Of a stretch of 42,568 bases of DNA, positions 5,971-42,568 are shown piece after piece. The notes beneath the pieces are model-generated. The model did no database searches and had not been told where the DNA came from. It worked only from the letters and a program-made list of their open reading frames with translations. The position numbers were made by a program, and so were the translations under genes. The DNA is from a virus. How positions within the stretch are numbered: the stretch's first letter is position 1; every line of letters begins with the position of its first letter. Location: positions 1 to 42,568 of the IMG/VR virus record IMGVR_UViG_3300034142_000043; one strand, 5' to 3'.

Positions 5971-5995
5971 TGTTGTATCGGCCACGGTTACAACA
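5971..5995 (-). promoter_or_regulatory. Ogr-type activator site between P and O operons
   Basis: TGTTGT...ACAACA outer dyad; inner 19 bases 5974-5992 fit TGT-N13-ACA. Read on the minus strand it is TGTAACCGTGGCCGATACA, matching the sites at 13449 and 19175 in both half-sites. The orientation and the 49-base distance to the terminase start at 5924 mimic the J and V arrangement, so it most likely drives P-Q leftward. It may also serve O, whose ATG is at 6115. Confidence 0.75.
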
Positions 5996-6114: not shown

Positions 6115-6999
6115 ATGACGAAAATCTCGAAGTTTTTCCGCCTGGCGACCGAAGGCGCCACCTGCGACGGCCGCACGATCTCGCGCCAGGACATCGTCGA
6201 CATGGCGGAGACCTACGACCGCCAGACCTACGGCGCCCGCGTCAACATGGAGCATATTCGCGGCTTTTCCGCCGACCCGCCCTTTTGCGCCTACGGCGAC
6301 GTTGTCGCGGTGAAGACGGAGGAGGTTCAGCTCAACGTCGGCGGCAAGAATGAGAAGCGCCTGGCGCTGCTCGGCCAGGTCGAAGCGCTCGACCCGCTCG
6401 TGACGCTTAGCGCCAAGGGCCAGAAGGTCTACCCCTCGGTCGAGATCAACCCGAACTTCGCCGGCTCCGGCAAGGCATACCTGCAGGGGTTGGCCATCAC
6501 CGACAGCCCCGCCTCGCTCGGCACCGAGATCCTCGCCTTCGCCGCCGGTCTCGGCGACAAGAGCCCGTTCGCGGCCAAGAAGCAGGACAAAGGCAATTTC
6601 TTCAGCGCCACCACCGATGGCGTCATGATCGAGCTCGAGGAAAAGCCGGCGCCGGCGCAGCCGGAAAGCGCCGGGCTGTTCGCGGCCGCGACGGAATTTT
6701 TCAAGCAATTCTCCAGATCCGCCGAGCAACCCGGTGCCGTCCCGCCGGTCGTTCCGCCGGCTCCGGCGAACGACAATGCCGCCCTCGCGCAGCTGAGCGC
6801 CTCGATCGGCGACGGGTTCTCCAAGCTGAGCGCGGCGATGGCCGCCATGTCGACTGAGACCAAGGCCGACCTCGGCAAGCTCCGCGCCGATCACGACGCG
6901 CTGAAGGCGTCGATCGAGAACACGGACGCCGACAAGAGCAAGCGGCCGCCCGCCACCGGCGCCGCCGGCAACGGCAACTACGCCGTCACCGACTTCTAG
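6115..6999 (+). CDS. O: Capsid scaffolding protein with serine protease domain, gpO family
   Basis: A 294-residue protein (P2 gpO 284). It guides procapsid assembly and then matures itself, capsid and portal by proteolysis. The N-terminal domain keeps the P2-type triad in place: D18 in TCDGR, H47 in NMEHIRG and S108 in VYPSVEI. The C-terminal part (about 180-290) is rich in Ala, Pro and charged residues and helical, as expected for the scaffold portion. First gene of the rightward head operon. Its neighbours N and M follow in P2 order. No strong ribosome binding site precedes the ATG. Confidence 0.95.
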   Translation: MTKISKFFRLATEGATCDGRTISRQDIVDMAETYDRQTYGARVNMEHIRGFSADPPFCAYGDVVAVKTEEVQLNVGGKNEKRLALLGQVEALDPLVTLSAKGQKVYPSVEINPNFAGSGKAYLQGLAITDSPASLGTEILAFAAGLGDKSPFAAKKQDKGNFFSATTDGVMIELEEKPAPAQPESAGLFAAATEFFKQFSRSAEQPGAVPPVVPPAPANDNAALAQLSASIGDGFSKLSAAMAAMSTETKADLGKLRADHDALKASIENTDADKSKRPPATGAAGNGNYAVTDF

Positions 7000-7056
7000 G
7001 CGCCGCTTCACCGCACCGCCTGCCCGCCAGCTTCCATCCCGCCGAGGAACGAGAAC

Positions 7057-8088
7057 ATGCTCAACACCACCCGCGTCCACTTCAACTCGCTGCTGTCGCG
7101 CATCGCGGAGCTCAACGGGGTCGACGACGCCACCAAGTCGTTCAGCGTGGAGCCGAGCGTCGAGCAGAAGCTCGAGGCCCGGGTCCAGGAATCGAGCGCC
7201 TTCCTCTCCGAGGTCAATATCTACCCGGTGCCGGAGCTCAAGGGCGAGAAGCTCGGCATGGGCGTCACCTCCACCATCGCCGGCCGCACCGACACCAGCG
7301 GCGCCGGCCGCCGCCAGCCGCGCAGCCCGATGAGCCTCACCGGGCGCGGCTACGACCTGAAGCAAACCGACTTCGACACCTACATCACCTACGCGCAGCT
7401 CGATCTCTGGGCCAAGTTCCCGAACTTCCAGACGATGTTCGGCAACGTCATCGCCCAGGCGATAGCACTCGACCGCATCATGATCGGCTTCAACGGCACC
7501 AGCGCGGCCGCCACCAGCGACCGCGTCGCCAATCCGCTGCTCGAGGACGTCAACAAGGGCTGGCTGCAGTATATCCGCGAAGAGGCGCCCAACCACGTCT
7601 TCAGCGACGGCGCCCATGCCGTCGGCAAGATTCGCGTGGGCGCCGACCCGGCCACGACCGATTACCGGACGCTCGACGCGCTGGTCTATGATGCGGTCCA
7701 CAGCTTCATGCCGACCTGGTCGCGCCAGCGCATGGACCTCGTCGCGATCGTCGGCGGCGGCCTGCTTCACGACAAATACTTCGTCCTGATCAATGAGAAG
7801 CAGGATCCGACCGAGCAGGTCGCGCGCGACATCGTGATGTCGACCCGGCGCATGGGCGGCCGTCAGGCGGCCGAAGTGCCGTACGTGCCCGCCGACACCA
7901 TTCTGGTGACCCCGCTCAAGAACCTTTCCATTTACCATCAGGAGGGCAAGCGCCGCCGCTACATTCAGGAGGAGCCGAACGCCAATCGCATCGCCGACTA
8001 CCAGTCTTCGAACGAAGGCTACGTGGTCGAGGATGTCGATCCTGTCGTGCTGATCGAGAACATCGAACTCGTCGCCGGCGCCGGCTGA
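7057..8088 (+). CDS. N: Major capsid protein, P2 gpN family
   Basis: A 343-residue protein (P2 gpN 357) with the HK97-like fold expected for this family; it builds the icosahedral shell. The start MLNTTRVHFNSLLSRIAELNG and later blocks such as SLTGRGYDLKQTDFDTYI, and the run ending in GYVVEDVDPVVLIE, are typical of the P2 capsid family. The first 20-30 residues are probably removed by gpO during maturation (known for P2, not visible here). GAGGAACGAG precedes the ATG. The next gene, M, overlaps its stop codon. Confidence 0.96.
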   Translation: MLNTTRVHFNSLLSRIAELNGVDDATKSFSVEPSVEQKLEARVQESSAFLSEVNIYPVPELKGEKLGMGVTSTIAGRTDTSGAGRRQPRSPMSLTGRGYDLKQTDFDTYITYAQLDLWAKFPNFQTMFGNVIAQAIALDRIMIGFNGTSAAATSDRVANPLLEDVNKGWLQYIREEAPNHVFSDGAHAVGKIRVGADPATTDYRTLDALVYDAVHSFMPTWSRQRMDLVAIVGGGLLHDKYFVLINEKQDPTEQVARDIVMSTRRMGGRQAAEVPYVPADTILVTPLKNLSIYHQEGKRRRYIQEEPNANRIADYQSSNEGYVVEDVDPVVLIENIELVAGAG

Positions 8089-8846
8089 TGTCGCCCGCCC
8101 AACGCGCCTTCGCCCGGAAGACGGCCGCCCTGGCGGCGGCATCCACGGCGGCGAGCTCCGCGCTCTCCCGGCCGGCTTCCGGCGCCGAGGCGACCGAATA
8201 CGAGCAGCAGCGAGCGCGGCTCGGCGAAGATCTCCGCCGCCTTCGCGAGATTCAATCGATCGAAGCGAAGATCGAGCTGAAGCGGGAACTGCTGCCCGCC
8301 TACGATCCCTGGGTGGGGGGCGTTCTGGACGCCGCGGCCGTCGACGGCGCCCGCGGCGTCCAAGATGATATCCTCGTCCAGATCATGATCTGGCGCATCG
8401 ATGTCGGCGACTTCGCGGGCGCGCTCCCGCTGGTCGAATACGTCCTGCGCTGGAACCTCGCCCTGCCCGAGCGCTTCAACCGCACCGCCGCGACCATGAT
8501 CGCCGAGGAGATTGCGGAAGCAGCGTTGAAGGCGCTCGCGCAGGGCGAGCCTTTCGATCTGCAGCTGCTCACCCGCATCGAAGAGCTCACCGCCGGCCAC
8601 GACATGCACGACCAAGTCAAGGCCAAGCTGATGAAGGCGATGGGGCTTGAATTGGCGCGCCACGCCGCCTCGCTGACCGCCGACGCGGACGGGCCCGCCG
8701 GCGCCAAGCGCGCGGCCGTGGAAGGCGCGATCGTGAAGTTCAGGCGCGCTCTTCAGCTCAATCCGAAGGCGGGCGTCAAAAAGGATCTCGAACGCCTGGA
8801 GCGCGAGCAAGTGAAGCTCGCCGCCGGGCCCGCCGAGGAAAGCTGA
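8088..8846 (+). CDS. M: Terminase small subunit (endonuclease), P2 gpM family
   Basis: A 252-residue protein (P2 gpM 247). It partners terminase P in recognising and cutting cos ends. Seen: an N-terminal helical region with a long charged segment (LGEDLRRLREIQSIEAKIELKR split around residues 45-65), then a conserved middle with LPAYDPWVGGVLDA and DILVQIMIWRIDVGDF. The C-terminus is helical. The ATG at 8088 overlaps the TGA of the capsid gene, indicating coupled translation. Position after O and N is exactly as in P2. Confidence 0.92.
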   Translation: MSPAQRAFARKTAALAAASTAASSALSRPASGAEATEYEQQRARLGEDLRRLREIQSIEAKIELKRELLPAYDPWVGGVLDAAAVDGARGVQDDILVQIMIWRIDVGDFAGALPLVEYVLRWNLALPERFNRTAATMIAEEIAEAALKALAQGEPFDLQLLTRIEELTAGHDMHDQVKAKLMKAMGLELARHAASLTADADGPAGAKRAAVEGAIVKFRRALQLNPKAGVKKDLERLEREQVKLAAGPAEES

Positions 8847-13445: not shown

Positions 13446-13470
13446 TGTTGTAACCGCCGCCGATACAACA
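13446..13470 (+). promoter_or_regulatory. Ogr-type activator site upstream of J
   Basis: Outer dyad TGTTGT...ACAACA; inner 13449-13467 is TGTAACCGCCGCCGATACA, fitting TGT-N13-ACA. It differs from the V site by one base (G for T after AACC). The J start codon is 38 bases downstream (13506), or 47 if ATG 13515 is used. It presumably drives the J-I-H-fibre block. Confidence 0.78.
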
Positions 13471-19171: not shown

Positions 19172-19196
19172 TGTTGTAACCTCCGCCGATACAACA
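19172..19196 (+). promoter_or_regulatory. Ogr-type activator site upstream of V
   Basis: Outer dyad TGTTGT...ACAACA; inner 19175-19193 is TGTAACCTCCGCCGATACA, fitting TGT-N13-ACA. The V start at 19242 is 48 bases downstream, close to the 49 bases seen at P. It probably drives V-W and the whole tail block through D, since I find no other such site up to 26225. Confidence 0.78.
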
Positions 19197-27561: not shown

Positions 27562-28251
27562 CTACATTCGTCTTCCGACCCAAATCACGCGACCGACGAT
27601 GAACAACTCGTCTTCGGTCGCCTTGATCGGCGTCACTGTGGGGTTGTCGCTGTTGAGCTGGAACATGCCGCTCGCCAGCCTTCGCACCCGCTTGATCTGC
27701 GCCAGTTCGCCATAACCGAGCGCCCAGATCTTGTCCTGATGCCGGATCGAGCGGTCGGCGCGGTTCACCAGCACATCGTCCCCGTCCAGGATCGTCGGCA
27801 TCATCGAATCGCCCTCGCCGCGCGTGAGGAAGACGTCCGCCGGCCCTCCCCGCGTCAGCCGCGACAGCCAGTCCCGACGGAACGGGACCATCGTCGTAGG
27901 TGGAGCCTCCTCGATGATGGAGCCGCCCCCCATCGAATAGGCAATATCCACCTCGGGAATCATGGTCAGGCCGAGGCGCATGACCATGCGATCATCGGAA
28001 GTCCCCGCGCTCGCCTCCGTCTCCGGAAGGCCCCCGTCCTGCTCGATCGCTTGCCGAACGTACCGAAGCCAGCGGGGGACGCTCTTCGCGTGATCGTTTT
28101 CGAAGTGAGAGATGGATTGCTGGGTAAGCTTGAGAGGGTCACCTCGCCTCTCAGCAATCTCCCTCGCGCGTCGCGCGACCTCACTCGTGGACCAGCCCAA
28201 GCGTTCACGCTCGGACTTAAGCCAGACCGCCGCTGCGCGCACATCGCCCAT
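27562..28251 (-). CDS. Phage repressor: HTH plus S24 LexA-like domain
   Basis: A 229-residue protein. The N-terminus (about 8-60) is an XRE-type HTH (LGWSTSEVARRAREIAERRG, LTQQSISHFEN). The C-terminal half is an S24 peptidase fold with nucleophile S149 in GEGDSMMPT and general-base K187 in AQIKRV, then the ending DELFIVGRVIWVGRRM. Such repressors keep the lytic genes off and cleave themselves after RecA activation; no clear Ala-Gly cleavage pair is seen, so the exact site is uncertain. Divergent from the Cro-like gene across an 81-base operator region with CTACAA half-sites. It heads the leftward lysogeny operon. Confidence 0.92.
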   Translation of the reverse strand: MGDVRAAAVWLKSERERLGWSTSEVARRAREIAERRGDPLKLTQQSISHFENDHAKSVPRWLRYVRQAIEQDGGLPETEASAGTSDDRMVMRLGLTMIPEVDIAYSMGGGSIIEEAPPTTMVPFRRDWLSRLTRGGPADVFLTRGEGDSMMPTILDGDDVLVNRADRSIRHQDKIWALGYGELAQIKRVRRLASGMFQLNSDNPTVTPIKATEDELFIVGRVIWVGRRM

Positions 28252-29861: not shown

Positions 29862-30200
29862 ATGACTACTGCATTTCGACATTCATTAGACTGCCCGCAC
29901 TGCCGCAAGGGCGCGCGGGTGCGGAGTTCAAGGGTACTCACGCCCACCTATAAGCAGCTTTACCTGCAGTGCATGAACATCGAGTGCGGCGCCACCTTCG
30001 GCGCGGCTTTCGAGCTCCTCTACATGATCACGCCCAGCGCGGTCCCCAACCCCGACATCCACCTCCCGGTGGCGCCGGCGCGCAGCCGCGCGCTTCCGGT
30101 GCCGGCGAACGATGTTGAACCTGGCGGCTCGGAGGTGCCGCTACCCATGATGGCCAACGACAACGATCCGATTGGCGAAGCCGTCGCGACAGGGGGCTGA
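29862..30200 (+). CDS. ogr: Late transcription activator, Ogr/Delta family
   Basis: 112 residues from ATG 29862, with GGGGGGAAGAG upstream. The zinc finger has C11, C14, C37 and C42, i.e. C-x2-C-x22-C-x4-C, the exact spacing of P2 Ogr and P4 Delta. Surrounding text also fits (LDCPHCRKGARVRSSRVLTP, LYLQCMNIECGATFGAAFEL). P2 Ogr activates the late promoters by binding a TGT-N12-ACA dyad near -55 and contacting RNA polymerase alpha. The C-terminal 45 residues are Pro-rich and specific to this protein. In P2, ogr lies after D; here it sits in the early operon behind the CII-like gene, so late activation follows directly from early transcription. Confidence 0.93.
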   Translation: MTTAFRHSLDCPHCRKGARVRSSRVLTPTYKQLYLQCMNIECGATFGAAFELLYMITPSAVPNPDIHLPVAPARSRALPVPANDVEPGGSEVPLPMMANDNDPIGEAVATGG

Positions 30201-30286: not shown

Positions 30287-33013
30287 GTGCTGCTTGAAGA
30301 AAGTGACCCGTCCCCGATGCCGATGCGCCCCGACATCCAACGCGACGTTCTGAAAGCTCTGGAGGCGAACTTCACCTTCCGGCGCAGCGGCGAGTGGCTG
30401 CGCGGCGGCAAGTGCCCGCAATGCGGCAAGAAGGAAGTCTACACCCACGCGGAGAGCCCTCGGGTGCTGAAGTGCAGCCGGCTCGGCCGCTGCGGTTGGG
30501 AAGCGCACGTCAAGGAGCTGTACCCAGAGATCTTCGACAATTGGTCGGACCGGTACCGGACGACGGAATCGGACCCGAACGCCGCAGCCGATGCCTATCT
30601 CAGCCACGCCCGCGGCCTCGACCTTCAGGGCCTCCGCGGCGCCTACAGCCAGGAATGGTACCGCGACCCCGAGCGCGGCATCGGCACGGCGACGGTTCGC
30701 TTCCAGCTCCCCGGGGGCAGCTGGTGGGAGCGGCTGATCGACCAGCCGGGCCGGTTCGAGAAGAAGGCGCGGTTCGCCTACGCCAAGTCGTGGCGCGGTC
30801 ATTGGTGGCGGCATCCCGAGGTCAGCCTCGCCGACCTCGCCGCGGCCGACACCATCTGGATCAACGAAGGCATCTTCGACGCCCTGTCGCTGGAGCAGGC
30901 AGGCCAGCGGGCGGTCTCGATCATGGCCTGCAACGTCTACCCCGAGATCGCTCTCGACGAGCTGCGGAAGGCGATCGCCAACGGGCCCAACCCCACGCAT
31001 CAGCCGCGCCTCATCTGGGCGCTCGACGTCGGCAAGGCGGGCACCGAGTGGACCCGCAAGCACGTCGCCCGCGCCCGCAAGGAGGGCTGGGAATGCGGAG
31101 CCGCCCAGGTTCGCGACGATACCGACCCCGGTCGCAAGCTCGACTGGAACGACCTCCTCCTCCGCAAGAAGCTGAGGCCGGAGCACCGGGAGGACTATCT
31201 CTGGCACGGCGACGTCCTGATCGCGCCGACGGCCAGCGAGAAGGCCTTCCTCATCTGGCAGCGCCGCCAATGGTCCAGCTTCCACTTCGTGTTCGAGACC
31301 CGCACTTGGTGGGCGGAGTTCAGCCAGGCGAAGATCGCGGAGACCATCCAAGGCTACGCTGAGAAGAGCGAAGTCTCGGCCCTGTCCTACGAGCAGAAGC
31401 GCGACCTCGCCGCGCGCGAGGCCGGCCTCGTCCGCGAGATCGCGAACTGCGCCTTCCGCGTGCTCTATCGGCAGCGGGACGAGGCCACCGACGAGACCGC
31501 CTACTTCTTCAACATCGACTTCCCGAGCGATCGGCCGTCGACCAAAGGCGGCTTTGCGGCCAACGCGATCTCCGCCTCGGCCGAGTTCAAGAAGCGGCTG
31601 CTTGCGGTCGGCACCGGCGCCATCTGGACCGGAAGCCAGAACCAGCTCGATCGCATCATGCAGCGGCAGATGCCGGCGATCCCCGACATCGAGACGATCG
31701 GCTTCACCGGCTACAGCCGCGATCACGGCGCCTACATCTTCCCCGACATCGCCGTGATGAACGGGCGCGTCTTCCGCCCCAACGACGACGACTTCTTCGA
31801 TCTGGCCAAGGACGTCCAGGTCAAGCTCGGCACCAGCGAGCGCCTGCTCGAGATCGAGTACAACCCGGATGCCTTCGATACGGACTGGGTTGCCGACCTG
31901 TGGACCGCCTTCGGAGCCAAGGGGATCGTCACCCTCGGCTTCTTCTTCGCCACCCTCTTCGCCGAGCAGATCCGCCGCGACAGGAAGAGCTTTCCCTTCC
32001 TGGAAATGTGGGGCGATCCCGGCTCCGGCAAGACCACCCTGGTCGAGTTCCTCTGGAAGCTGTTCGGCCGCGAGAATTACGAGGGCTTCGATCCGGCCAA
32101 GGCCACCCAGGCGGCGCTGGCGCGCAACCTCGGCAAGGTCGGCAACCTCCCCGTCGTGCTCATCGAGGGTGATCGCAACGAGGAAGCGAGCCACGCCCGC
32201 CGGTTTGAGTGGGAGGAGCTGAAGACGGCCTATAACGGCCGCTCTGTCCGCTCCCGGGGCGTCCGCAACAGCGGCAACGAGACCTACGAACCCCCCTTCC
32301 GCGGCGGGATCGTCATCGAGCAGAACGACCCGGTCAACGCCTCGCGCGCCATCCTCGAGCGCATCATGAGCGTCGGCTTCGACCAGACGGGGTGGAGCCC
32401 GGCGACGAAGAAGGCAGCCGAGCGCCTCGAGCAATGGCCGATCGAGAAGCTTTCGGGCTTCATCATCCACGCGGCGCGGCGCGAGGCCGAGATCCTCAAG
32501 ATCTTCCGCGAGCGCTTCGATCGCCACGAAGCCGATCTCCTCGCCCTTCCGGAGATCCGCACCAGGCGGCTCGCCAAGAACCATGGCCAGTTCCTCGCCA
32601 TGCTCGACGCTCTGCGCCTGGTGCTCCCGTTGCGGGACGAGCAGCATGATGCCGCCGCGACCTTGGTGCGCCGCATGACGGTCGAGCGCCAGCTCGCGAT
32701 CAATTCCGATCATCCGGTCGTGGAGCTCTTCTGGGATCGCTTCGATTGGATCGAGGCGAACCAGGGCGACAACCCCTCGCACCCGATCGACCACCATCGC
32801 CAGCCGGACCTGATCGCGATCAGCCTCCCCGAATTCGAGGAGCGGTGCGCCAGCCGGCGGCTCGAAATCCCGTCTCACGCCGAGCTCAAGAAGCACCTCA
32901 AGACTTCGAAGAGCCGGCGCTTCGTCGAGGCGAAGAACGTCAACTCCGTCACCGGGAAGATTTTGCACTGCTGGGTCTTCCAGCGGCCCGGTGCCCCCCC
33001 TGCAAGCCGCTGA
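30287..33013 (+). CDS. Primase-helicase fusion (zinc finger, Toprim, P-loop ATPase)
   Basis: 908 residues from GTG 30287, with AGGGAAGG upstream; ATG 30317 is the alternative. Domains in order: zinc finger C43, C46, C63, C69 (GGKCPQCGKKE...LKCSRLGRCG); a Toprim-like primase part with E194 in INEGIFDAL and D247 in IWALDVGKAG; a middle region of unknown fold; and a P-loop helicase with Walker A GDPGSGKT at 576-583, followed by PVVLIEGDRNEE as probable Walker B. The C-terminus (about 800-908) is basic. The protein should prime and unwind phage DNA. No P2-type rolling-circle nuclease A is present, so replication is not by the P2 mode (inference). Confidence 0.85.
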   Translation: MLLEESDPSPMPMRPDIQRDVLKALEANFTFRRSGEWLRGGKCPQCGKKEVYTHAESPRVLKCSRLGRCGWEAHVKELYPEIFDNWSDRYRTTESDPNAAADAYLSHARGLDLQGLRGAYSQEWYRDPERGIGTATVRFQLPGGSWWERLIDQPGRFEKKARFAYAKSWRGHWWRHPEVSLADLAAADTIWINEGIFDALSLEQAGQRAVSIMACNVYPEIALDELRKAIANGPNPTHQPRLIWALDVGKAGTEWTRKHVARARKEGWECGAAQVRDDTDPGRKLDWNDLLLRKKLRPEHREDYLWHGDVLIAPTASEKAFLIWQRRQWSSFHFVFETRTWWAEFSQAKIAETIQGYAEKSEVSALSYEQKRDLAAREAGLVREIANCAFRVLYRQRDEATDETAYFFNIDFPSDRPSTKGGFAANAISASAEFKKRLLAVGTGAIWTGSQNQLDRIMQRQMPAIPDIETIGFTGYSRDHGAYIFPDIAVMNGRVFRPNDDDFFDLAKDVQVKLGTSERLLEIEYNPDAFDTDWVADLWTAFGAKGIVTLGFFFATLFAEQIRRDRKSFPFLEMWGDPGSGKTTLVEFLWKLFGRENYEGFDPAKATQAALARNLGKVGNLPVVLIEGDRNEEASHARRFEWEELKTAYNGRSVRSRGVRNSGNETYEPPFRGGIVIEQNDPVNASRAILERIMSVGFDQTGWSPATKKAAERLEQWPIEKLSGFIIHAARREAEILKIFRERFDRHEADLLALPEIRTRRLAKNHGQFLAMLDALRLVLPLRDEQHDAAATLVRRMTVERQLAINSDHPVVELFWDRFDWIEANQGDNPSHPIDHHRQPDLIAISLPEFEERCASRRLEIPSHAELKKHLKTSKSRRFVEAKNVNSVTGKILHCWVFQRPGAPPASR

Positions 33014-34278: not shown

Positions 34279-34688
34279 AGGCCGGGCGCTACCTGCGCAA
34301 GCGGCGCGAGGCTGCCGGCCTCACCATTGCCGACGTCGCCGCACGGCTCGTGCCCCTGGAGCTCGACCGCCGCCTGTGGCGGACAGAGGAAGCGAATTGC
34401 GTAGGCATGAGCCGGCGCGACATCTCGCTTCTCCGTGGCGTCTTCCCGTTCGACCCGGCCATCCTCCGCCGGCTGATCGAGGGCGACGAGAGCGACCAGA
34501 TCTGCCGCCGATGCGGCTGCAGCGAGCAGGACGCCTGCTCCGATCAGCACCCCGGCGCCGGCATCTTCTTTGTAGAGCCGGTCGGCTGCCACTGGGTCGC
34601 GCACGATCTCTGCAGCGCCTGCGCCGCCGTCGGAGGATCCCGGCCCACCCCTCATCACCTCCACTTGAACCCGGAGCGCCGCCAGTGA
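34275..34688 (+). CDS. HTH protein with cysteine-rich C-terminus
   Basis: 137 residues from ATG 34275, overlapping the ASCH stop. N-terminus: an XRE-like start MKAGRYLRKRREAAGLTIAD and VAARLVPLELDRRLW. C-terminus (about 75-115): ICRRCGCSEQDACSD and HDLCSACAAV, a cluster of at least six cysteines likely binding zinc. The stop overlaps the GTG of the methyltransferase, so it is co-translated with it and could regulate it, as controller proteins of modification genes do. That last point is inference. Confidence 0.7.
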   Translation: MKAGRYLRKRREAAGLTIADVAARLVPLELDRRLWRTEEANCVGMSRRDISLLRGVFPFDPAILRRLIEGDESDQICRRCGCSEQDACSDQHPGAGIFFVEPVGCHWVAHDLCSACAAVGGSRPTPHHLHLNPERRQ

Positions 34689-36826
34689 AGCACCCGAACT
34701 TGCTTGAGGAGCATGGTCTCCTGCCCCCGCCAACTCCGCGGTTCGAGCGCCGCGCCCATATCGGCGGCAAGGTCGGCGTCGGTTTCGCCGGCGGCGGTGG
34801 TTCCAGCCTCGGCCTTAAGTGGGCGGGGCTCTCCATCGACTTCGCGATGAACCACGATGCCGCGGCGATCGCGATGCACTCGGCGAACTGCCCCGAGGCC
34901 CACCATTATTGTCAGGACATCTGGCAGGTGCGCCCCGAGGACCCCTGCCCGGGCGAGCCGATCCGCTTCATGTGGTTCAGCCCGGACTGCAAGCACTTCT
35001 CGAAAGCCAAGGGCGGTCAGCCGGTCGAGAAGAAGATTCGCGACCTCGCCTGGGTCATCGTGCTCTGGGCCCGCATCCGCCGCCCCGACGTCATCTGCAT
35101 GGAGAATGTCGAGGAGTTCAAGACTTGGGGCCCGCTCATGGCGGACCCGAAGCGCCCAGGCCGGATGATCCCGGATCCTGCGCGTAAAGGCGAATATTTC
35201 GCCGCCTTCGTCGCCGAGTTCCAGCGCCTCGGTTACGATTGCGGCTTCATCGAGGAACGCGCCTGGCGCTTCGGCGCGCCGACCATTCGCAAGCGCATGT
35301 TCGGCCAATTCCGCTGCGACGGCCAGCCGATCACTTGGCCGGAGCCTACGCATGGCGCGCCCGACGATCCCGCCGTGATCGCGGGGAGGCTGCTGCCCTG
35401 GCGCACCATCGCCGAGTGCATCGACTTCGACCGGCCCTGTCCCTCCATCTTTCTCACCCGCCAGGAGGCGCGGCGCGTCCGCGCCAATCGCCCGCTCGCC
35501 GACGCGACCATGGCCCGCATCACCCTCGGCCTTCAGCGCTACGTGCTCGAGGCCGACCGGCCGTACCTTATCCGCGTGGATAACACGTCGGAGGGCCGCC
35601 CGCGGCTGGTCGTCCCGCACGTCAGCACGATGCGCAATGCTCAGAAGCCGTTCAACGGCGTCGATGAGCCCGGCGTGACGGATACAGCCGGCGGCGCCAA
35701 CCGGGCTCTGATCGCCGCGCACCTCGCCAAGTTCCAAGGCGACAGCGACGGCGCCCCGCTTGATCGCCCTGGACCGACGATCACGGCCAACAGCTTCGAA
35801 AAGCGGCCTGGTTGCGCGGCGCCGGTCGGCGTCGCCGCCGCCTATCTGGCAAACACCGCCCACGGGGAGGCGACACCGAACGGTAGCAGGCGCTGGGGAA
35901 AGGGGCATCACGACGTTGGCCAACCCGCGCCAGCATTTACCGGCTCCAGGGATCATGCCGTCGTCGCGGCGACCATGGTGCAAACCGGCTATGGGGAGCG
36001 GCCCGGGCAGGAGCCGCGCGCTCTGGACGTCCAGGCGCCGGTCGGCACCCAGGTCAGCGCCGGCGCCAAGCATGCTCCCGTCGCCGTCTACATGGCGCAG
36101 CACAATGGCGGCGTCGTTGGCCACCGCGCCGACAAGCCGATGTCGACGTTGCTGACCGCCGGCTGCCACCAGCACGTCGTCGCTTCGAACCTCCTGCATC
36201 TGCGCGGTTCCGGTGAGCGGTTCGGCAACCGGATCGACGAGCCGGCCCGCACCGACACCGCCGGCGGCAATCACCAGGGCATCTCCTCGGCCTTCCTCGT
36301 GAAGTATTACGGCGCGGCTCAGCACGGCCAGCGCCCCGACGAGCCCGCCCATACCGACACCCCAAAGCCGCGCTTCGCGCTCGTCATGGTCGACCTCGCC
36401 GTCGTCGGCCTCACCGAGGAGCAACGCTATACCGCCTGGTGGGTGGCGAGGATGATCGACGTCTGGGGCCACCCGGACGGGCTTCCGCCTCGCGGCCGCC
36501 GGAAGCGGAGGGGCGTCGGCAGCCTCCGCCTATCCGGTCTGCAGGAGCGGATCGACAACGCCCTGACGCCTCGGCCTTCCGCCGTCGGCACCCGCGGCGG
36601 CTACATCGTCTGGGATATCGGCATGCGGATGCTGACCGTGCGCGAGCGCTTCCGCGCGCAGGGAGTGCCCGACGACTTCATCATCGACGTCGAAGTGGAC
36701 GGGAAGCCGATTACCGAAACGAAGCAGGGCGAGATGTGCGGCAACATGGTCTGCCCCGACCACGCCGAAGCCATCGCCGGCGCCGCACTTCCCGAGCTCC
36801 AAACCCTGCAGGAGGCAGCCGAATGA
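34685..36826 (+). CDS. C5-cytosine DNA methyltransferase with repeat-rich insertion
   Basis: 713 residues from GTG 34685. Motif I FAGGGGSSLGL (34-44) binds SAM. Motif IV is FSPDCKHFSKAKGG with catalytic C102 (SPDC in place of PPC). Motif VI is ENVEEF (140-145), motif VIII IRKRMFG (201-207). Motifs IX-X lie at the C-terminus (LTVRERFRAQGVPDDFI, then MCGNMVC). Between VIII and IX, residues about 321-565 contain some seven degenerate repeats of 30-38 residues, with the pattern DEPxxTDTAGGxHxxVxAxxL. They stand where the target recognition domain belongs. Probably protects phage DNA or alters its expression. No matching restriction enzyme lies nearby except the HNH protein at 38523. Confidence 0.9.
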   Translation: MKHPNLLEEHGLLPPPTPRFERRAHIGGKVGVGFAGGGGSSLGLKWAGLSIDFAMNHDAAAIAMHSANCPEAHHYCQDIWQVRPEDPCPGEPIRFMWFSPDCKHFSKAKGGQPVEKKIRDLAWVIVLWARIRRPDVICMENVEEFKTWGPLMADPKRPGRMIPDPARKGEYFAAFVAEFQRLGYDCGFIEERAWRFGAPTIRKRMFGQFRCDGQPITWPEPTHGAPDDPAVIAGRLLPWRTIAECIDFDRPCPSIFLTRQEARRVRANRPLADATMARITLGLQRYVLEADRPYLIRVDNTSEGRPRLVVPHVSTMRNAQKPFNGVDEPGVTDTAGGANRALIAAHLAKFQGDSDGAPLDRPGPTITANSFEKRPGCAAPVGVAAAYLANTAHGEATPNGSRRWGKGHHDVGQPAPAFTGSRDHAVVAATMVQTGYGERPGQEPRALDVQAPVGTQVSAGAKHAPVAVYMAQHNGGVVGHRADKPMSTLLTAGCHQHVVASNLLHLRGSGERFGNRIDEPARTDTAGGNHQGISSAFLVKYYGAAQHGQRPDEPAHTDTPKPRFALVMVDLAVVGLTEEQRYTAWWVARMIDVWGHPDGLPPRGRRKRRGVGSLRLSGLQERIDNALTPRPSAVGTRGGYIVWDIGMRMLTVRERFRAQGVPDDFIIDVEVDGKPITETKQGEMCGNMVCPDHAEAIAGAALPELQTLQEAAE

Positions 36827-38523
36827 GCGCGATCCTCGACACCCATCACGCGGTCGTCGGCTCCAGCGGGGCCGGCAAGACGGTTACAGCCAAAGGCGAG
36901 GCCGAGCAGCTCCTCCGCGAGCGTCGGCACCTGGCCATCATCGACCCGACAGATGCCTGGTACGGCATGCGCTCGAACGTCGCGGGAGACGGCCCCGGCT
37001 TCGACATCCCCATTTTTGGGGGGCGGCACGGCGATGTCGCCATAGGCCCCCATGATGGCGACGCAATCGCTCGCATCGTCATCGAGCAACAGGTCTCCGC
37101 GATCGTCAGCCTCGCCCACATTCACGAGGCCCAGCTGCAGCGCGTCTTCATGGCCGCTTTCGTGAAGCGGCTGCGCGCCAAGCCTCGCGGCAACTTCCAC
37201 CTGATAGCGGACGAGGCGGACGAGCTCTGCCCGCAGACGGCCCGCGACGACGTCGGCTTCGCGCTCACCGAGGACATGATCTGGATAGCCAAGCGGGGGC
37301 GGCTCGCCGGCTTCGTCCTCACCGTCATCACCCAGCGGCCCGCCGACATCTCCAAGGCAGTCCTGTCGCAGATGCAGACGATCGTCGCTCACCAGCTCGT
37401 GGATCCCCGCGACCAGAAGGCGATCGACGATTATCTGCGGGCGAAGGGAGACAGGGCTATTCGTGCCGAGGTGATGGCCTCGCTCCCGTCCCTCGCCCAG
37501 GGCGAGCGCTGGATCTACAGCCCAAAGCTCGGCATCCTCGAGCGCGGCGTCTCCCCGCCGCTGACGACGTTCGACAGCTCCCGGACCCCCGCGCCCGGCG
37601 AGGTCCACGTAGAGCCGAAGATGCTGAGCTCCATCAACGTCGGCGCGATCGCCAAGGCGCTCGAGCAGCCGCGGGCCGAGACCGCCGCGGCGGCCTACCA
37701 TGCCGGCGCCGAGGCTGGTCAGCTGCTTATGGAGCGAGATCGGCGCATCGCCGAGCTTGAGAACGAGATCGCCGCGCTGAAGCAATCGGCATCGGCCGAC
37801 AAGCGGCGCGCCGACCACCACGCGCGGGCCCTCGCCGCGCTCCGGGACGACGCCAACCGTTCGCTGGCAGCATTCCCCGCCGATGCGGATCTGCACCGAA
37901 GCTCGGCCGAGCAACCCGCAGCGTCCGCGACGAAGCGCTCCCCGGCTCCTCGCGCGCAAGCCCCCGAGCAGGAGGCTGCGCCGGCGCGTCCCTCTGCCGC
38001 CGCCGCCCCTTCCGAACGCTTGCCGAAGCCGCCTGCGGGGCCCGACTTGCCGCCGCGGCGGCAACGTATTTTGGATGCGCTTGCCTGGGTCTCCGTCTTC
38101 CTGGGCAAAGAGAGCGTGCCCCGCGCTGTCGTCGCCTACATCGCGGAGACGACCCCAAACTCATCGACTTTCGAGAAAGACTTGGGCGCGATGAGAACGA
38201 TGGCGCTCATAGACTATCCCGAGCAGGGGCATGTTCGCTTCACCGCCGTAGGCAAGCCACTCGCTCGGGCATGGAATGCGCCAGCGACCCGCGACGAGCT
38301 CTTCAGCGCTGTCTCCGCGAAGATGCCCCCCCGGCGCTCGCGAATCCTGCAGCAAGTCTGGGCGGGCGCGCCCCTAAGTCGCGAGGAACTCGCGACCGCA
38401 TGCGAGACCACCCCGACATCGTCGACCTTCGAAAAGGACCTCGGCGCCATGCGCACGTTGGGCCTGATCGACTACCCGTCGAAGGGGGAGGTGCAGCTGG
38501 CGGCTGTCCTCAGGGGCTCCTGA
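36823..38523 (+). CDS. HerA/VirB4-type ATPase with duplicated C-terminal winged-helix unit
   Basis: 566 residues from ATG 36823, overlapping the methyltransferase stop. Walker A GSSGAGKT at 13-20; Walker B FHLIADEADE with D130 and E131; then LTVITQRPADISKAVLSQM, a sensor-like block typical of HerA/DUF87 ATPases. Coiled coil about 295-330 (RDRRIAELENEIAALKQSAS), a Pro/Ala-rich linker, then two copies of a DNA-binding-like unit starting PPRRQRIL (410) and PPRRSRIL (502). Each contains ETTPxSSTFEKDLGAMRT and LIDYP. Hexameric DNA translocation is expected of the family. It might process replication intermediates or serve in defence with the following HNH protein. Confidence 0.82.
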   Translation: MSAILDTHHAVVGSSGAGKTVTAKGEAEQLLRERRHLAIIDPTDAWYGMRSNVAGDGPGFDIPIFGGRHGDVAIGPHDGDAIARIVIEQQVSAIVSLAHIHEAQLQRVFMAAFVKRLRAKPRGNFHLIADEADELCPQTARDDVGFALTEDMIWIAKRGRLAGFVLTVITQRPADISKAVLSQMQTIVAHQLVDPRDQKAIDDYLRAKGDRAIRAEVMASLPSLAQGERWIYSPKLGILERGVSPPLTTFDSSRTPAPGEVHVEPKMLSSINVGAIAKALEQPRAETAAAAYHAGAEAGQLLMERDRRIAELENEIAALKQSASADKRRADHHARALAALRDDANRSLAAFPADADLHRSSAEQPAASATKRSPAPRAQAPEQEAAPARPSAAAAPSERLPKPPAGPDLPPRRQRILDALAWVSVFLGKESVPRAVVAYIAETTPNSSTFEKDLGAMRTMALIDYPEQGHVRFTAVGKPLARAWNAPATRDELFSAVSAKMPPRRSRILQQVWAGAPLSREELATACETTPTSSTFEKDLGAMRTLGLIDYPSKGEVQLAAVLRGS

Positions 38524-38948
38524 TGCCTATCCGCCCCGAGAACCGCAGCCGTTATCCCGCCGACTGGCAGGCGATCAGCGCGCGCATCCGTAAGGAGCGC
38601 GCGGGCGATCGCTGCGAATGCGCGGGCGAATGCGGGCACGAGCACGGCGGCCGCTGCCCCGAGCTGAACGGGCAGGCGAATACGGTCACCGGCTCCCCTG
38701 TCGTCCTCACGGTCGCTCACCTGGACGACGTCCCGGAGCACTGCGACGACGAGAACCTCAAGGCCATGTGCCAGCGCTGCCACCTCGCCTACGACCGCCA
38801 TATCCACGCGGCGAACCTTCGCGAGACCATGTCGCGGCGGCGCCTCGAGCGGTCGAACAATCACGAGCTGTTCGCCGGCGCCGACCTCGGCGGCGAAGCG
38901 CGCCTCGCCCTGCTGAGGCAGCGGCCATGCGGGGAGGATCGCAGGTGA
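38523..38948 (+). CDS. HNH-type endonuclease-like protein
   Basis: 141 residues from ATG 38523, overlapping the ATPase stop. Start RSRYPADWQAISARIRKERA, then cysteine pairs CECAGECGHEHGGRC. The HNH core is VLTVAHLDDVPEHCDDENLK with H as general base in AHLDD, followed by AMCQRCHLAYDR (CxxC plus H). Such small proteins are zinc-bound HNH nucleases; in phages they can nick DNA, act at packaging or come from homing elements. The terminase here is far away and already has M, so packaging help is possible but unproven. Confidence 0.8.
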   Translation: MPIRPENRSRYPADWQAISARIRKERAGDRCECAGECGHEHGGRCPELNGQANTVTGSPVVLTVAHLDDVPEHCDDENLKAMCQRCHLAYDRHIHAANLRETMSRRRLERSNNHELFAGADLGGEARLALLRQRPCGEDRR

Positions 38949-38983: not shown

Positions 38984-39568
38984 ATGAACGCCTACGCCGC
39001 CGGCAATCGAAGCGGCCACGCCGATCGCGAGCCCGACGACTTCTACCCGACGCCGCCCTGCGCCACGGAGGCGCTTCTCGCCGTCGAGCGGTTCGAAGGC
39101 GCCATCTGGGAGCCGGCCTGCGGTACCGGCGACATGAGCCGGGTGCTGGCGGCCGCGGGTTATGAGGTTATCTCCACGGACCTGATCGATCGAGGCTTCG
39201 GCCAGGGCGGACGTGACTTCCTTTGCGAGTGGACCCCGCTCGCACCCAACATCGTCACTAATCCGCCCTTCAAATGGGCGATCCAGTTCGTTGAGCGCTC
39301 GCTCCAGCTGACCACCGGGAAGGTCGCGCTCTTCCTCCGCCTGGCGTTCCTCGAGGGGCAGGAGCGCGGACGCTGGTTCCCAACGACGCCGCTGGCTCGG
39401 GTGTGGATTATGTCGCGGCGAGTTCCGGTGATGAAGGGACGGCTGCTCGAGGCCGGCGAGAAGGGAGGCGTCCTCGCTTTCGCTTGGTTCGTCTGGGAGC
39501 ACGGCCACGTGGGCAGCCCCGAGCTCCGCTTCCTCGACTGGAAGCACCCGGAGCGGGCGCTCGGCTGA
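38984..39568 (+). CDS. NPPF-type DNA methyltransferase (adenine N6 likely)
   Basis: 194 residues from ATG 38984, preceded by GGAGGAAGG; a GTG at 38945 overlapping the HNH stop would add 13 residues but lacks such a site. Start region YPTPPCATEALLAVERFEG; SAM motif IWEPACGTGDMSRVL; acidic loop VISTDLIDRGFGQGGRDF; catalytic motif NIVTNPPFKWA; then VALFLRLAFLEGQERGR. This is the compact phage class of amino-methyltransferases (DNA-Dam-like). Together with the C5 enzyme upstream it gives the phage two modification activities. Sequence specificity cannot be read. Confidence 0.87.
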   Translation: MNAYAAGNRSGHADREPDDFYPTPPCATEALLAVERFEGAIWEPACGTGDMSRVLAAAGYEVISTDLIDRGFGQGGRDFLCEWTPLAPNIVTNPPFKWAIQFVERSLQLTTGKVALFLRLAFLEGQERGRWFPTTPLARVWIMSRRVPVMKGRLLEAGEKGGVLAFAWFVWEHGHVGSPELRFLDWKHPERALG

Positions 39569-39753
39569 TGGGGGACGGCCGCCCGCCTCCGGCCCCTGAG
39601 CTCGTCGAGCTGGCGAAGGCGCTCGCGCGCGCGGCCGTGGCGCGCGACTTCGACAGTCGCTATCCCAAGGGCGTCAGGGCCGATCCCGCCCCGCGTGGAG
39701 CCTCACATGAAAACCGTCATCTACGCCCGCTTCAGCTCCGCGCTCCAGAATAG
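39568..39753 (+). CDS. 61-residue protein overlapping the recombinase start
   Basis: ATG 39568 overlaps the upstream stop. It reads MGDGRPPPAPELVELAKALA then RAAVARDFDSRYPKG, a short amphipathic helix with a basic, Arg/His-rich end. The final 46 bases overlap the recombinase gene in another frame. Short 'ELVELAKALA' proteins sit in front of recombinase genes in related prophages (recollection). Because recombination directionality factors of serine integrases are small and often adjacent, it is one candidate, with no direct evidence. Confidence 0.55.
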   Translation: MGDGRPPPAPELVELAKALARAAVARDFDSRYPKGVRADPAPRGASHENRHLRPLQLRAPE

Positions 39754-41344
39754 CCGCTCGGCCGACGATCAGATCGCCTTGTGCGCGGCCCGCTGCGAAC
39801 GCGAAGGCTGGGAGGTGGTCGCCGTCTACAAAGACGAGGCGATCAGCGGCGCCGCCGGCATCGGCGAGGTAGCACGGCCCGGCCTTAACGCCGCCCTCGA
39901 CCGCATTGAATCGGGCGGGGTCGATCAGTTGCTGGCCGAATCCACCGACCGAATCGCCCGTCACCAGGGGGATGCTTTCGCGGTTCGGGAACGTCTCGAA
40001 TATGCGGGCGTCCGCCTCTTTACCCTTCTGGATGGCGTCGTCGACGACATCACCGGCACCATCAAAGGGCTCTTCGACGCCCGTTTCCGAAAGGATCTTG
40101 GCGCTCGCATCCGCCGCGGGCAGCGCGGCACCGTCGAGCAGGGCCGGATCCCCGCCGGGCTCGCCTACGGCTACCGCAAGGCGCCGCGGCTCGACGAGCG
40201 CGGCGAGCTGGTTCGGGGCGAGCGCTCGATCGATCCTGACCAGGCTGAGGTCGTGCGCCGCATATTCGAGGAATATGCCGCCGGCGACAGCCCGCGCGCG
40301 ATCGCCAAGCGGCTGAACGATGAAGGGGTGCCGGCCCCGCGCGGTGCGACCTGGCGCGCCAGCACGATCAATGGCGATCGCAAGCGGCGCAACGGCATCC
40401 TGCAGAACCGGCTCTATGCCGGCGAAATCGTCCACGCGCGGACGAGCAAGGTGACGGAGCCGACCAGTCGGCGCACCCGCATCCGGCCCAACGCCGAGGC
40501 AGAATGGATATCGCAGTCCGCGCCGGAGCTGGCGATCGTCGATAGAAGCCTCTGGGAGAAGGTGCAGGCGCTGCGCACGCGCTTCGCGGGTCCCCGCATC
40601 GATCAGGCGCGCCGGCCCAAGCTCATGCTCTCCGGCTTGGCCTTTTGCGGCCTGTGCGGCGGAGGCTGGACGGTAATCGGCCGATCGCGATGGGGTTGTG
40701 GCCGCGCTCGTGACGGTGGCGGCTGCTCGAACAATCGGACCATCAATAACCGCCTGTTCGAGGAGCGCGTCCTGGACGGCCTCACCGAGCGGATGCTGGA
40801 CCCGGTGTTGGTGGCCACCTACGTCCGCGAATATCACGAGCAGCATGCCCGGCGAGCGACCCAGCTAGCGCGGCAGCGCGCGAGACTGGAGCGGCAGCTG
40901 GCGGAGATCGCGGCGAGGATCGAGCGCTTGGTGGCGGCCATCGCGTCCGGCGCCGACATGGACGAGGTACGGGCTTCCCTGGAGTGCCAGCGCGCCGAGC
41001 GCGAAGCCGTCGTCGGCGAGCTGCGCGAGGTGGAGTCGCTCCCCGTGGTTGCGCTCCACCCGCATCTCGCCCGAGATTACCAAAATCGGATGACGCGGCT
41101 CGGCGCGGCCGCCCTGTCCGAAGATCCCGCCGATCGCCGTGAAGCGATGCCGATCGTGCGCAGCCTGGTCAGCCGGATCGACGTCGTTCCCGCCACCGAC
41201 AAGCGCGGCACCGAGATCGAAGTCACCGGCCGACTTGCGAGCATCCTCGCCCTGGCCACGGGCACCCCGCCCCCGAGCGAGATGTATGTTAATGGCGGAG
41301 CGGGTAGCGGGAATCGAACCCGCGTCACAAGCTTGGAAGGCTAG
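39707..41344 (+). CDS. int: Large serine recombinase (phage integrase)
   Basis: 545 residues from ATG 39707 (GGAG seven bases upstream). The N-terminal resolvase domain has YARFSS with nucleophile S10, SADDQIALCAARCEREGW and LLAESTDRIARHQGD. The recombinase domain follows (RIPAGLAYGYRKAP, SPRAIAKRLNDEGVPAPRG). The zinc domain has GLAFCGLCGGGWTVIG, RWGCGR and a later Cys, then a long coiled coil (ARQRARLERQLAEIAARIER). The last codons lie inside tRNA-Gly: SGNRTRVTSLEG is host-derived. In the excised phage the tail would be RANPPLTYFLRAKA (547 residues). P2 itself uses a tyrosine integrase, so the integration module was exchanged. Confidence 0.95.
   Translation: MKTVIYARFSSALQNSRSADDQIALCAARCEREGWEVVAVYKDEAISGAAGIGEVARPGLNAALDRIESGGVDQLLAESTDRIARHQGDAFAVRERLEYAGVRLFTLLDGVVDDITGTIKGLFDARFRKDLGARIRRGQRGTVEQGRIPAGLAYGYRKAPRLDERGELVRGERSIDPDQAEVVRRIFEEYAAGDSPRAIAKRLNDEGVPAPRGATWRASTINGDRKRRNGILQNRLYAGEIVHARTSKVTEPTSRRTRIRPNAEAEWISQSAPELAIVDRSLWEKVQALRTRFAGPRIDQARRPKLMLSGLAFCGLCGGGWTVIGRSRWGCGRARDGGGCSNNRTINNRLFEERVLDGLTERMLDPVLVATYVREYHEQHARRATQLARQRARLERQLAEIAARIERLVAAIASGADMDEVRASLECQRAEREAVVGELREVESLPVVALHPHLARDYQNRMTRLGAAALSEDPADRREAMPIVRSLVSRIDVVPATDKRGTEIEVTGRLASILALATGTPPPSEMYVNGGAGSGNRTRVTSLEG
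41284..41307 (+). other. attR: attR: right attachment site
   Basis: The phage arm GTATGTTAATGGCGG (41284-41298) overlaps the core GGAGCGGGTAG (41297-41307), after which the host tRNA continues. The arm is the reverse complement of the arm at 1616-1630. The expected crossover AG is at 41306-41307, between the T-stem and the 3' acceptor strand of the tRNA. Confidence 0.88.
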
Positions 41345-41369
41345 TGCTCTACCATTGAGCTATACCCGC
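41299..41369 (-). tRNA. tRNA-Gly (anticodon TCC)
   Basis: Read on the minus strand, the cloverleaf is complete: acceptor GCGGGTA/TACCCGC, D-stem GCTC/GAGC, anticodon loop CTTCCAA with TCC at 41337-41335, T-stem GCGGG/CCCGC with loop TTCGATT, and discriminator T. After the discriminator the sequence is CCG, not CCA. The host side of attL shows that the gene ended TCCA before integration. The 3' acceptor strand is thus rebuilt by phage DNA with one base changed. Confidence 0.97.
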
Positions 41370-41439: not shown

Positions 41440-42568
41440 TCAGCCGATGATATCGCCCGAGGTCAGCACCGTCACCCCTTCGACGCGGATGAAGAAATCG
41501 GCGATGCCGTTGCCGTCCGTGTCGCCCTGCAGCAGCGCGTCGCCGCCGACCACCTGGTAGCGCAGCTCGCCGACCCTCCCCGAAAAGGCGCCGGTGCCGA
41601 TGAAGCTGAACTTGTCGTCGGCCACCGTATTTTCGTTGGCGTCGATCTGGCGGAGGTGGATGACGTCGTGCTGGGCGGCCGAGAAGTCGGTGATCCGGTC
41701 CGCCTGGGCCAGGAGCGCGCTGCTGTCGCCGTCGGCGAAGGCGAACGTGTCGCGGCCGGTGCCGCCGGTCAGCACATCGCGCTGGCCGCCGCCGAACAAT
41801 ATGTCGTTGCCGACGCCGGCCAGCAACGTGTCGTTGGCGTCGCCCCCGTAGAGCCGGTCGTCGCCGGTGCCGGCATCGAGCGTGTCGCCGCCATTATTGC
41901 CCGACAGGCGGTCGTTGCCGCCGCTTGCGAACAAGGCGTCGGCCCCGGCCCCGCCGAACAGCGAATCGTTGCCGGCATTGCCCTGCAGATTGTCGGCGCC
42001 GCCTTCGCCGGCCAGGATGTCGTGGCCGTCGCCGCCGCGCAGCTTGTTGTCGCCGCCATTGCCGATGACGAGATTGTCGTGCGCATTGCCGACGCCGAGC
42101 ACGGCCGTGCCGAGCAGGAGCAAGCCTTCGACATTCTCGGCGAGAACATGGTCGACCGACGCCCTCACCGCGTCGAAGCCCTCGTCGGCAAGCTCCACGA
42201 TCGTGTCGCCGGTGCCGACCACCACATAGGTGTCGTCGCCTTCGCCGCCGGCGAGCAGGTTGAGGCCGATGCCGCCGTTGAGCACGTCGTTGCCGGCGCC
42301 GCCGATGAGGAAGTCGTTGCAGCCGCCGCCGATCAGCCGGAAGGCGCCGTCGGTCTCGGCCGAGCCGTCGAACCACAATTCCTCGAGCGGGCTGAGCGCG
42401 GCGCCCGATACCACCAGGGTCCGGCCCGCCGCGACATTGTCGTCATGGGTGGTGAGATCGTAGCTGTTGCCGCCGGCCAGCAGGATCAGCTCGACCCGCC
42501 GCAGCGTGTCGGAGCCGAGCACCAGCGGCACGGTGTAATAGTCGCCGCTGAGCTTCAGCATGTCGTAG
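41440..42568 (-). CDS. RTX calcium-binding protein, C-terminal part (5' end outside window)
   Basis: About 376 residues visible; the frame is open to the window edge, so the first ATG at 42561 is probably internal. Seen: many nonapeptide repeats of the form GGxGxDxLx (GGAGNDVLNGG, GGEGDDTYVV, GGDGHDILAG, GGAGADALFA, GGQRDVLTGG), which bind calcium as a beta-roll after export. The end is a serralysin-type C-terminal domain (RDTFAFADGDSS, DRITDFSAAQHDVIHLRQID and GNGIADFFIRVEGV), which carries the type I secretion signal. The enzymatic or adhesive N-terminus is not in the window. The shallow repeats are coding, not a CRISPR array. Confidence 0.92.
   Translation of the reverse strand, partial: YDMLKLSGDYYTVPLVLGSDTLRRVELILLAGGNSYDLTTHDDNVAAGRTLVVSGAALSPLEELWFDGSAETDGAFRLIGGGCNDFLIGGAGNDVLNGGIGLNLLAGGEGDDTYVVVGTGDTIVELADEGFDAVRASVDHVLAENVEGLLLLGTAVLGVGNAHDNLVIGNGGDNKLRGGDGHDILAGEGGADNLQGNAGNDSLFGGAGADALFASGGNDRLSGNNGGDTLDAGTGDDRLYGGDANDTLLAGVGNDILFGGGQRDVLTGGTGRDTFAFADGDSSALLAQADRITDFSAAQHDVIHLRQIDANENTVADDKFSFIGTGAFSGRVGELRYQVVGGDALLQGDTDGNGIADFFIRVEGVTVLTSGDIIG

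Follow-up and report, generated by a model that had tools for sequence, protein, structure and literature searches.

A phage-borne HerA/FtsK-type ATPase with matched twin winged-helix units and its relatives in mobile elements

The IMG/VR virus record IMGVR_UViG_3300034142_000043 comprises 42,568 bases and was analysed over its full length (positions 1-42,568, hereafter the window). It encodes a HerA/FtsK-type ATPase that ends in two winged-helix (WH) units, and we found that the recognition helices of these units are closely matched within each protein of the family, although they differ widely from one protein to another. With moderate confidence, we regard the ATPase as one phage-borne representative of a family of short HerA/FtsK-type motors that is spread over mobile elements and probably acts on the DNA of the carrying element. 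The gene and its parts, in amino acids (aa) of the product, are the following:

36823-38523, plus strand: HerA/FtsK-type ATPase with twin WH units, 566 aa plus stop
36823-37632, plus strand: RecA-like motor core, aa 1-270 (structural alignment)
37672-37869, plus strand: long helix, probable coiled coil, aa 284-349 (AlphaFold model)
38053-38241, plus strand: WH unit 1, aa 411-473, with recognition helix aa 448-459 (38164-38199)
38146-38220, plus strand: core of unit 1, 25 codons from aa 442, ETTPNSSTFEKDLGAMRTMALIDYP
38290-38514, plus strand: WH unit 2, aa 490-564, with recognition helix aa 534-545 (38422-38457)
38404-38478, plus strand: core of unit 2, 25 codons from aa 528, ETTPTSSTFEKDLGAMRTLGLIDYP

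Matched recognition helices

The initial annotation of the window had noted that most core residues of the two units are the same and that their DNA differs chiefly at third codon positions, which it took as the mark of an old duplication under protein-level selection. Both observations were confirmed, as 22 of the 25 core residues are identical and the 20 base differences are distributed 3/2/15 over codon positions 1/2/3. The repeated motif coincides with the two recognition helices. The proposed duplication and selection are supported by these cores, by a codon test and by a comparison of 176 proteins.

Relatives were compared in two sets. The first started from 72 proteins, of which 12 without exactly two WH hits were dropped and the remaining 60 were reduced to 51 by dereplication at 70%; one protein of this set, L057, has three WH hits. 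The second drew on 187 further open reading frames of more than 480 aa, which contain exactly two WH units in 178 cases, one in three and none in six, with a median spacing of 87 aa between the two units. Thus, the twin arrangement in the window is not a chance feature. Nine of the 187 full-length proteins were dropped for their WH count, and 179 proteins yielded 125 after dereplication, which was applied also against the first set and removed loci that repeat a contig. Together, the sets hold 176 proteins.

In the first set, the recognition-helix columns 30, 31, 32, 34, 35, 36 and 38 are identical in 76-94% of comparisons within a protein and in 11-42% between proteins. Columns 3, 17, 26, 27, 29 and 39 show a within-protein excess of 23-40 points, and most others show little. 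The seven columns were chosen on these 51 proteins and then tested on the 125 new ones, where the two units of a protein agree at a mean of 6.29 of 7 positions, compared with 1.83 of 7 between proteins. A unit's own partner was its best or tied match in 117 of 125 cases, and the summed matches reached 786, the maximum among 20,000 shuffles being 290. The excess in the test set amounts to 52-80 points for the seven columns and to 26-46 points for columns 3, 17, 21, 26-29, 33, 39 and 42; column 40, also a helix position, has none.

When the 176 proteins are pooled, identity at the seven positions is 92.5% within a protein and, between proteins, 27.3% (unit 1 with unit 1), 27.7% (unit 2 with unit 2) and 27.5% (unit 1 with unit 2). 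The corresponding values for the rest of the WH domain are 32.8% within proteins and 31.9%, 31.1% and 25.8% between them. Since the rest of the domain is hardly more alike within a protein than between proteins, the duplication is an old one in which chiefly the reading face has been kept matched. From helix periodicity, we infer that the seven positions form the outward, exposed face of the helix. Unit 2 carries 145 distinct seven-letter codes in 239 proteins (not dereplicated). In four plasmid relatives, fetched from the 78 plasmid records described below, the unit pairs match at 7, 7, 7 and 6 of the 7 positions when compared by eye.

Where residues match at the seven positions, the two units use the same codon in 538 of 1092 cases (0.49). 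For comparison, the frequency is 0.45 when a residue is set against the same one at that column in other proteins of similar GC content, and nearby codon use predicts 0.43. Protein-level selection therefore explains the matching better than gene conversion does.

The code is also largely independent of the motor that carries it. Motor identity does not correlate with the unit-2 code (r = 0.04), and among 607 pairs whose motors reach 60% identity or more, 502 match at three or fewer of the seven positions; in an extreme case (L097 and L100), the motors are 89% identical and the codes match at 0/7. Conversely, 12 protein pairs have the same code with motors at most 35% identical. The window ATPase shows the same pattern when set against individual relatives, with motor and C-terminus identities of 79% and 22% (L001), 29% and 51% (L004), 25% and 44% (L006), and 77% and 62% (L038). 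As motor identity does not predict the code, the C-terminal part is swapped as a cassette between motors.

The motor core and the folds of the WH units

The window protein had been annotated as a HerA-type ATPase with two C-terminal winged-helix-like units, and both assignments were borne out, the former by a Walker A motif and by a core predicted to resemble HerA, and the latter by AlphaFold models, fold matches and the family as a whole. A model of the full ATPase, built with 51 sequences, has a mean predicted local distance difference test score (pLDDT) of 87.8 and a predicted template modelling score (pTM) of 0.57; in it, a low-confidence linker separates the long helix 284-349 from the WH units. 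Modelled separately, the WH pair reaches a pLDDT of 92.9 and a pTM of 0.81. Structural alignment (VIA-align) matched the motor core to the HerA structures 8xau (Z 26.8, root-mean-square deviation 2.8 Å over 236 residues) and 4d2i (Z 24.6). Canonical HerA carries an N-terminal HAS barrel. The motor of the window ATPase begins at residue 1, and the HerA chains align only from their residues 122-171 onward; by computation, the modelled ATPase thus lacks the N-terminal domain that canonical HerA has.

Residues G18, K19, E131, Q171 and R172 are invariant and R160 is near-invariant among the 51 aligned sequences, which include the window ATPase, and the AlphaFold model places a strand at 164-170. 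One paper lists as hallmarks of HerA/FtsK ATPases the Walker A and B motifs, a glutamine sensor that ends strand 4 and an arginine finger just before it (PMC10853773); all of these are present in the family ATPases. DUF87 matches 50 of the 51 family members at E ≤ 0.01. The window ATPase is matched by models of defence HerA proteins (4.7e-17), and its core by phrog_2666, "terminase large subunit" (1.1e-16). No nuclease family scored above its own cut-off in the window ATPase, XPG_I_2 reaching E 0.14. The ATPase was accordingly rejected as a candidate for the phage's terminase large subunit, as a separate terminase gene is also present at 4098-5924 on the minus strand. WH unit 2 fits the Z-alpha domain 9j8g (Z 9.3, 1.0 Å over 57 residues), and a Foldseek search with the WH pair returned no convincing match (best E 4e-3).

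Relatives, neighbouring genes and candidate DNA sites

Viral and genomic scans, together with one annotated phage record, placed relatives of the ATPase in many phages as well as in contigs from alphaproteobacteria and mycobacteria. A plasmid search with the ATPase matched 78 records, none of which reached 80% query coverage in one place, and a tblastn search of a phage collection matched two records, neither from Mycobacterium phages. A search at E ≤ 1e-60 across 385 genomes from the taxonomic class to which G001 (Sphingosinicella) belongs matched G001 alone. The homologous gene of L037 is divided between both ends of its 42,814-base record, which is therefore probably circular.

Three genes of the window stand directly around the ATPase, the two downstream ones being irregular partners:

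34685-36826, plus strand: C5 cytosine methyltransferase gene (phrog_116, PF00145), start codon inferred
38523-38948, plus strand: HNH endonuclease gene (phrog_1571)
38984-39568, plus strand: DNA methyltransferase gene (phrog_799)

The start of the ATPase gene overlaps the stop of the C5 methyltransferase gene (ATGA, 36823-36826), and its stop codon TGA (38521-38523) has one base in common with the ATG of the HNH gene (38523). The initial annotation had correctly described this second overlap, though not the first, and the methyltransferase that follows; its further suggestion, that ATPase, HNH protein and methyltransferase form a unit recognisable by fixed ATPase-HNH pairs, did not hold up. 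We counted neighbours at 175 dereplicated homologous loci; with flanks limited to 4-6 kb or less and some contigs ending early, the counts are lower bounds. Three of the 175 loci have an HNH relative nearby and one has the downstream methyltransferase family, so that homologues usually occur without the HNH partner and the trio is not supported as a unit. C5 methyltransferases were found near 21 loci, ParB-like genes near 26, DUF5131 genes near 31 and GapR near eight. When the neighbours of 72 loci were clustered and the gene with its shadow frames was set aside, the ParB-like (15) and DUF5131 (14) families again came out on top.

No endonuclease was found among the identified recurrent neighbour families, which cover part of those on the mycobacterial contigs. 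No regular effector was seen beside the ATPase, in searches that did not include Sir2 and DUF4297 models. Likewise, no restriction endonuclease (REase), Orc/Cdc6 or inactive helicase, for which no dedicated model was searched, turned up in five scanned window proteins or the identified recurrent neighbours. The HNH gene has a distribution of its own: a 2778-base query that includes it matched 105 phage records, 96 of them of Mycobacterium phages, and the ten phage matches listed cover the HNH part only. Phage Kevin1, for example, has the HNH gene and no HerA in the 8 kb examined. ZorE models match the window HNH protein at 1.3e-6. The four plasmid regions vary in the genes that adjoin the homologue: an FtsK/SpoIIIE-domain gene lies upstream of the homologue in two, and one region each has an HNH family protein at 2.5 kb, an AbiEii-type toxin gene at 5 kb and toxin-antitoxin genes.

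For the reader code GGG-RNA-S, there is a lead to a possible DNA site. This code is common to seven Mycolicibacterium-type contigs, one titled as a plasmid (L030) and six draft contigs that have a backbone in common with it. A k-mer scan of the seven contigs revealed a dispersed 25-bp motif, GGGGACGTGnCATCnnCGCTGGTCA, with 12-47 matrix sites on each; these counts arise by construction, because the matrix was built from the same contigs. In four whole Mycolicibacterium-type genomes, searched with up to three mismatches, 76 of the 80 motif matches lie on the gene-bearing contig and four on another (C49 of the draft genome G004), and a control with the reversed pattern gave none. The main contig of G426 (6.09 Mb) has no match at this threshold, and in 100 kb of it the matrix found no site above 14 bits and four above 10. 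Elsewhere, 18 phages (742 kb) have one site, one phage has a site within 80 kb, loci L062, L109 and L254 have one each, and three plasmids with other codes have 1, 2 and 0 within 320, 240 and 160 kb, respectively. Dispersed repeats were also observed on other-code plasmids (NZ_CP126902.1 and NZ_CP084587.1), namely TGTCA-N5-CTGAC at about seven places on the M. vanbaalenii plasmid and CCCTCATACTT ten times on the M. intracellulare plasmid.

The phages were scanned for targets with paired 6-mers (the window and 17 other records), k-mer enrichment by reader class and gapped 5-mer pairs, the results being judged by eye. An inverted repeat, GTTGTA-N11-TACAAC, occurs three times in the structural gene region of the window (5972-5994, 13447-13469 and 19173-19195) and also in the phage of L006, which has the same code. 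It was dropped as a reader target since similar repeats (TTGTAG...CTACAA) occur three times in the phage of L003, whose code differs; variants are found in the phages of L037, whose reader was not read, and L038, whose code is similar. We read the repeats, present despite the differing code, as late-promoter activator boxes, possibly of the P2 Ogr type. A small four-cysteine protein, presumably similar to the P2 late activator Ogr/Delta, is encoded at 29862-30200 on the plus strand. Tandem arrays were noted in the phages of L013 (from about 11978, 27-bp period, about 15 repeated pairs) and L010 (from about 41232, 12-bp period, more than 30 repeated pairs).

Genes in the window were named by PHROGs scans and Pfam. 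Besides baseplate and tail genes (PHROGs scans), they include:

3013-4098, minus strand: portal (PHROGs)
4098-5924, minus strand: terminase large subunit (PHROGs)
6115-8843: scaffold, major head protein and small terminase (PHROGs)
27562-28248, minus strand: CI-like repressor (PHROGs)
30317-33013: primase (PHROGs)
39695-41344: serine recombinase (Pfam)
41297-41369: tRNA-Gly gene, on the strand opposite to the serine recombinase

From this gene set, we take the virus to be a P2-like temperate myophage. The serine recombinase gene overlaps the tRNA-Gly gene, which extends to 41369, and this region (39695-41369) perhaps holds the right attachment site. Beyond it lies a glycine-rich repeat gene (41440-42561, minus strand), which presumably resembles a host RTX-type protein.

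Proposed function, alternatives and known systems

The ATPase is likely a DNA-processing machine. As both heads present the same reading face, their site may be built of two copies of one sub-site, read by the twin heads of what would be an element-specific DNA translocase. We propose that the heads would bind two copies of the same short sub-site, the binding site thus being a repeat, and that, much as FtsK-gamma acts at KOPS, this binding would load or orient a ring-shaped motor on DNA that bears the address of the element itself. Movement of that DNA by the motor would then serve to segregate, maintain or process the replicating DNA of phage or plasmid, and specificities would diversify so that co-resident elements avoid cross-reaction. 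Action on own DNA is favoured by the ParB-like and DUF5131 neighbours and by the confinement of most 25-bp motif matches to gene-bearing contigs. Reader turnover on nearly constant motors suggests a private address for each element. More tentatively, phages and plasmids could have in common a swappable private-address code, in which cassette readers are each matched to a dispersed repeat on their own replicon, the 25-bp motif being the address of the GGG-RNA-S version.

Several points weigh against these proposals. Translocation, ring formation and DNA binding are properties that we infer, and the exposure of the seven positions is deduced from periodicity; the aromatic column 33, taken as buried, also exceeds the between-protein level, by 44 points in the test set and by 13 in the first set. 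The ParB-like and DUF5131 neighbours are minority associations. In the window phage and 17 other phage records, we found no DNA target that follows the reader code. The contigs with the 25-bp motif share backbones (5-86% covered at 76-94% identity), and the same seven contigs (L318-L367, L374-L392) carry a second dispersed motif, AGTAC-N17-TCCGT, at 4-14 sites each, which is absent from 100 kb of the G426 main contig and from the three other-code plasmids. The shared backbones and this second motif make the 25-bp motif a lead and no proof. Its matrix sites are strand-balanced, two of the four genomes show an uneven split of strict matches (12:4 and 14:5), and the other-code plasmids show weaker candidates and no clear equivalent. 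A sequence akin to the second motif, GTACC-N14-TTTCC, occurs twice on NZ_CP084587.1. Finally, a kinase, Rio2, supplies the WH domain that ranks first among the fold matches of the pair (Z 11.3).

The kinase match bears on a different view of the helices, namely that their outward faces contact not DNA but each other, or a protein partner that is itself repeated. Matched positions would face a protein just as well, and a DNA target is unproven; the next fold matches, however, are the DtxR, MntR and MarR repressors (Z about 10, 70-80 residues), and winged helices usually read DNA through such helix positions, so we regard protein-binding faces as improbable. We judge it somewhat unlikely, too, that the heads recognise the DNA of rival phages or plasmids, which the motor would then exclude or capture in conflicts between elements. 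Readers that turn over independently of the motor would suit this role, as would the toxin, HNH and toxin-antitoxin genes found within 8 kb in some plasmid regions, and two papers describe HerA/FtsK ATPases coupled to fast-evolving winged helix-turn-helix (wHTH) domains in anti-invader systems (PMC10853773, PMC12839542). The systems described there carry an endonuclease, however, and none is seen among the identified recurrent neighbours, HNH genes being as rare as noted above.

That rarity also largely contradicts a defence trio of HerA, HNH protein and methyltransferase, for which the adjacent, overlapping genes of the window and the matches to defence HerA and ZorE models would speak: neither partner family recurs, the HNH gene stands in Mycobacterium phages where tblastn found no HerA homologue, and we consider such a trio very unlikely. 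A genome-packaging motor, suggested by the phrog_2666 match, is hardly to be expected in a phage with its own large and small terminase subunits, portal and major head genes. Finally, the helices might match through recurrent gene conversion or recent duplication and not through function. Homology in cis could in principle allow conversion, and old events followed by drift at silent sites would be compatible with the codon data; recent conversion as the cause was rejected on the codon test and the near-equal divergence of the units outside the helix, and the explanation as a whole, largely contradicted, retains a minimal probability.

The favoured motor acting on its element's own DNA has parallels among known translocases. 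In FtsK and SpoIIIE, a C-terminal winged helix reads short DNA sites and thereby loads and orients the motor, according to two reports (PMC8190038, PMC2680272). The family resembles them as a HerA/FtsK-clade motor with a C-terminal winged helix, and differs in having two WH units per chain, matched and variable recognition helices and a gene on mobile elements; of the strand polarity typical of KOPS and SRS sites, the family's candidate motif shows none by matrix and some unevenness by strict matches in two of four genomes. TraB also has a winged helix and, with its clt repeats, is a plasmid-borne translocase with plasmid-specific recognition. This specificity is stated for the Streptomyces plasmids pJV1, pSVH1 and pIJ101 in the part of the source available to us, which does not describe twin matched readers (PMC9513070); unlike the family, TraB is a conjugation protein of the FtsK branch. 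Archaeal and bacterial HerA proteins (HerA-NurA, HerA-DUF4297, HerA-Sir2) have the motor core fold in common with the family, whose members, in contrast, start directly with the motor, lack a regular HNH partner and have added readers. DndH-type capture systems combine HerA/FtsK with wHTH domains in mobile or defence loci (PMC10853773). The family shares this combination; unlike there, its readers are fused in tandem and matched, and the five scanned window proteins include no REase, Orc/Cdc6 or inactive helicase.

In the literature searched, mostly freely accessible papers, we found no description of matched twin readers in HerA-type proteins, and the accessible parts of PMC7824862, PMC5512222 and PMC11242194 describe none. 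Motors of the HerA type are already known, as are fused winged helices and translocases directed by sequence; matched twin readers across a large phage and plasmid family appear to be new. Sequence-reading DNA motors such as FtsK and TraB are known from few cases, and here they would form a large mobile-element family with more than 100 versions. Because the heads are matched and independent of the motor, the link from helix to site and the separation of DNA between co-resident elements become directly testable. The proposal would also give meaning to genes annotated just as DUF87 or HerA-like, and if the readers do recognise private addresses, the 145 codes could allow their recognition code to be deciphered.

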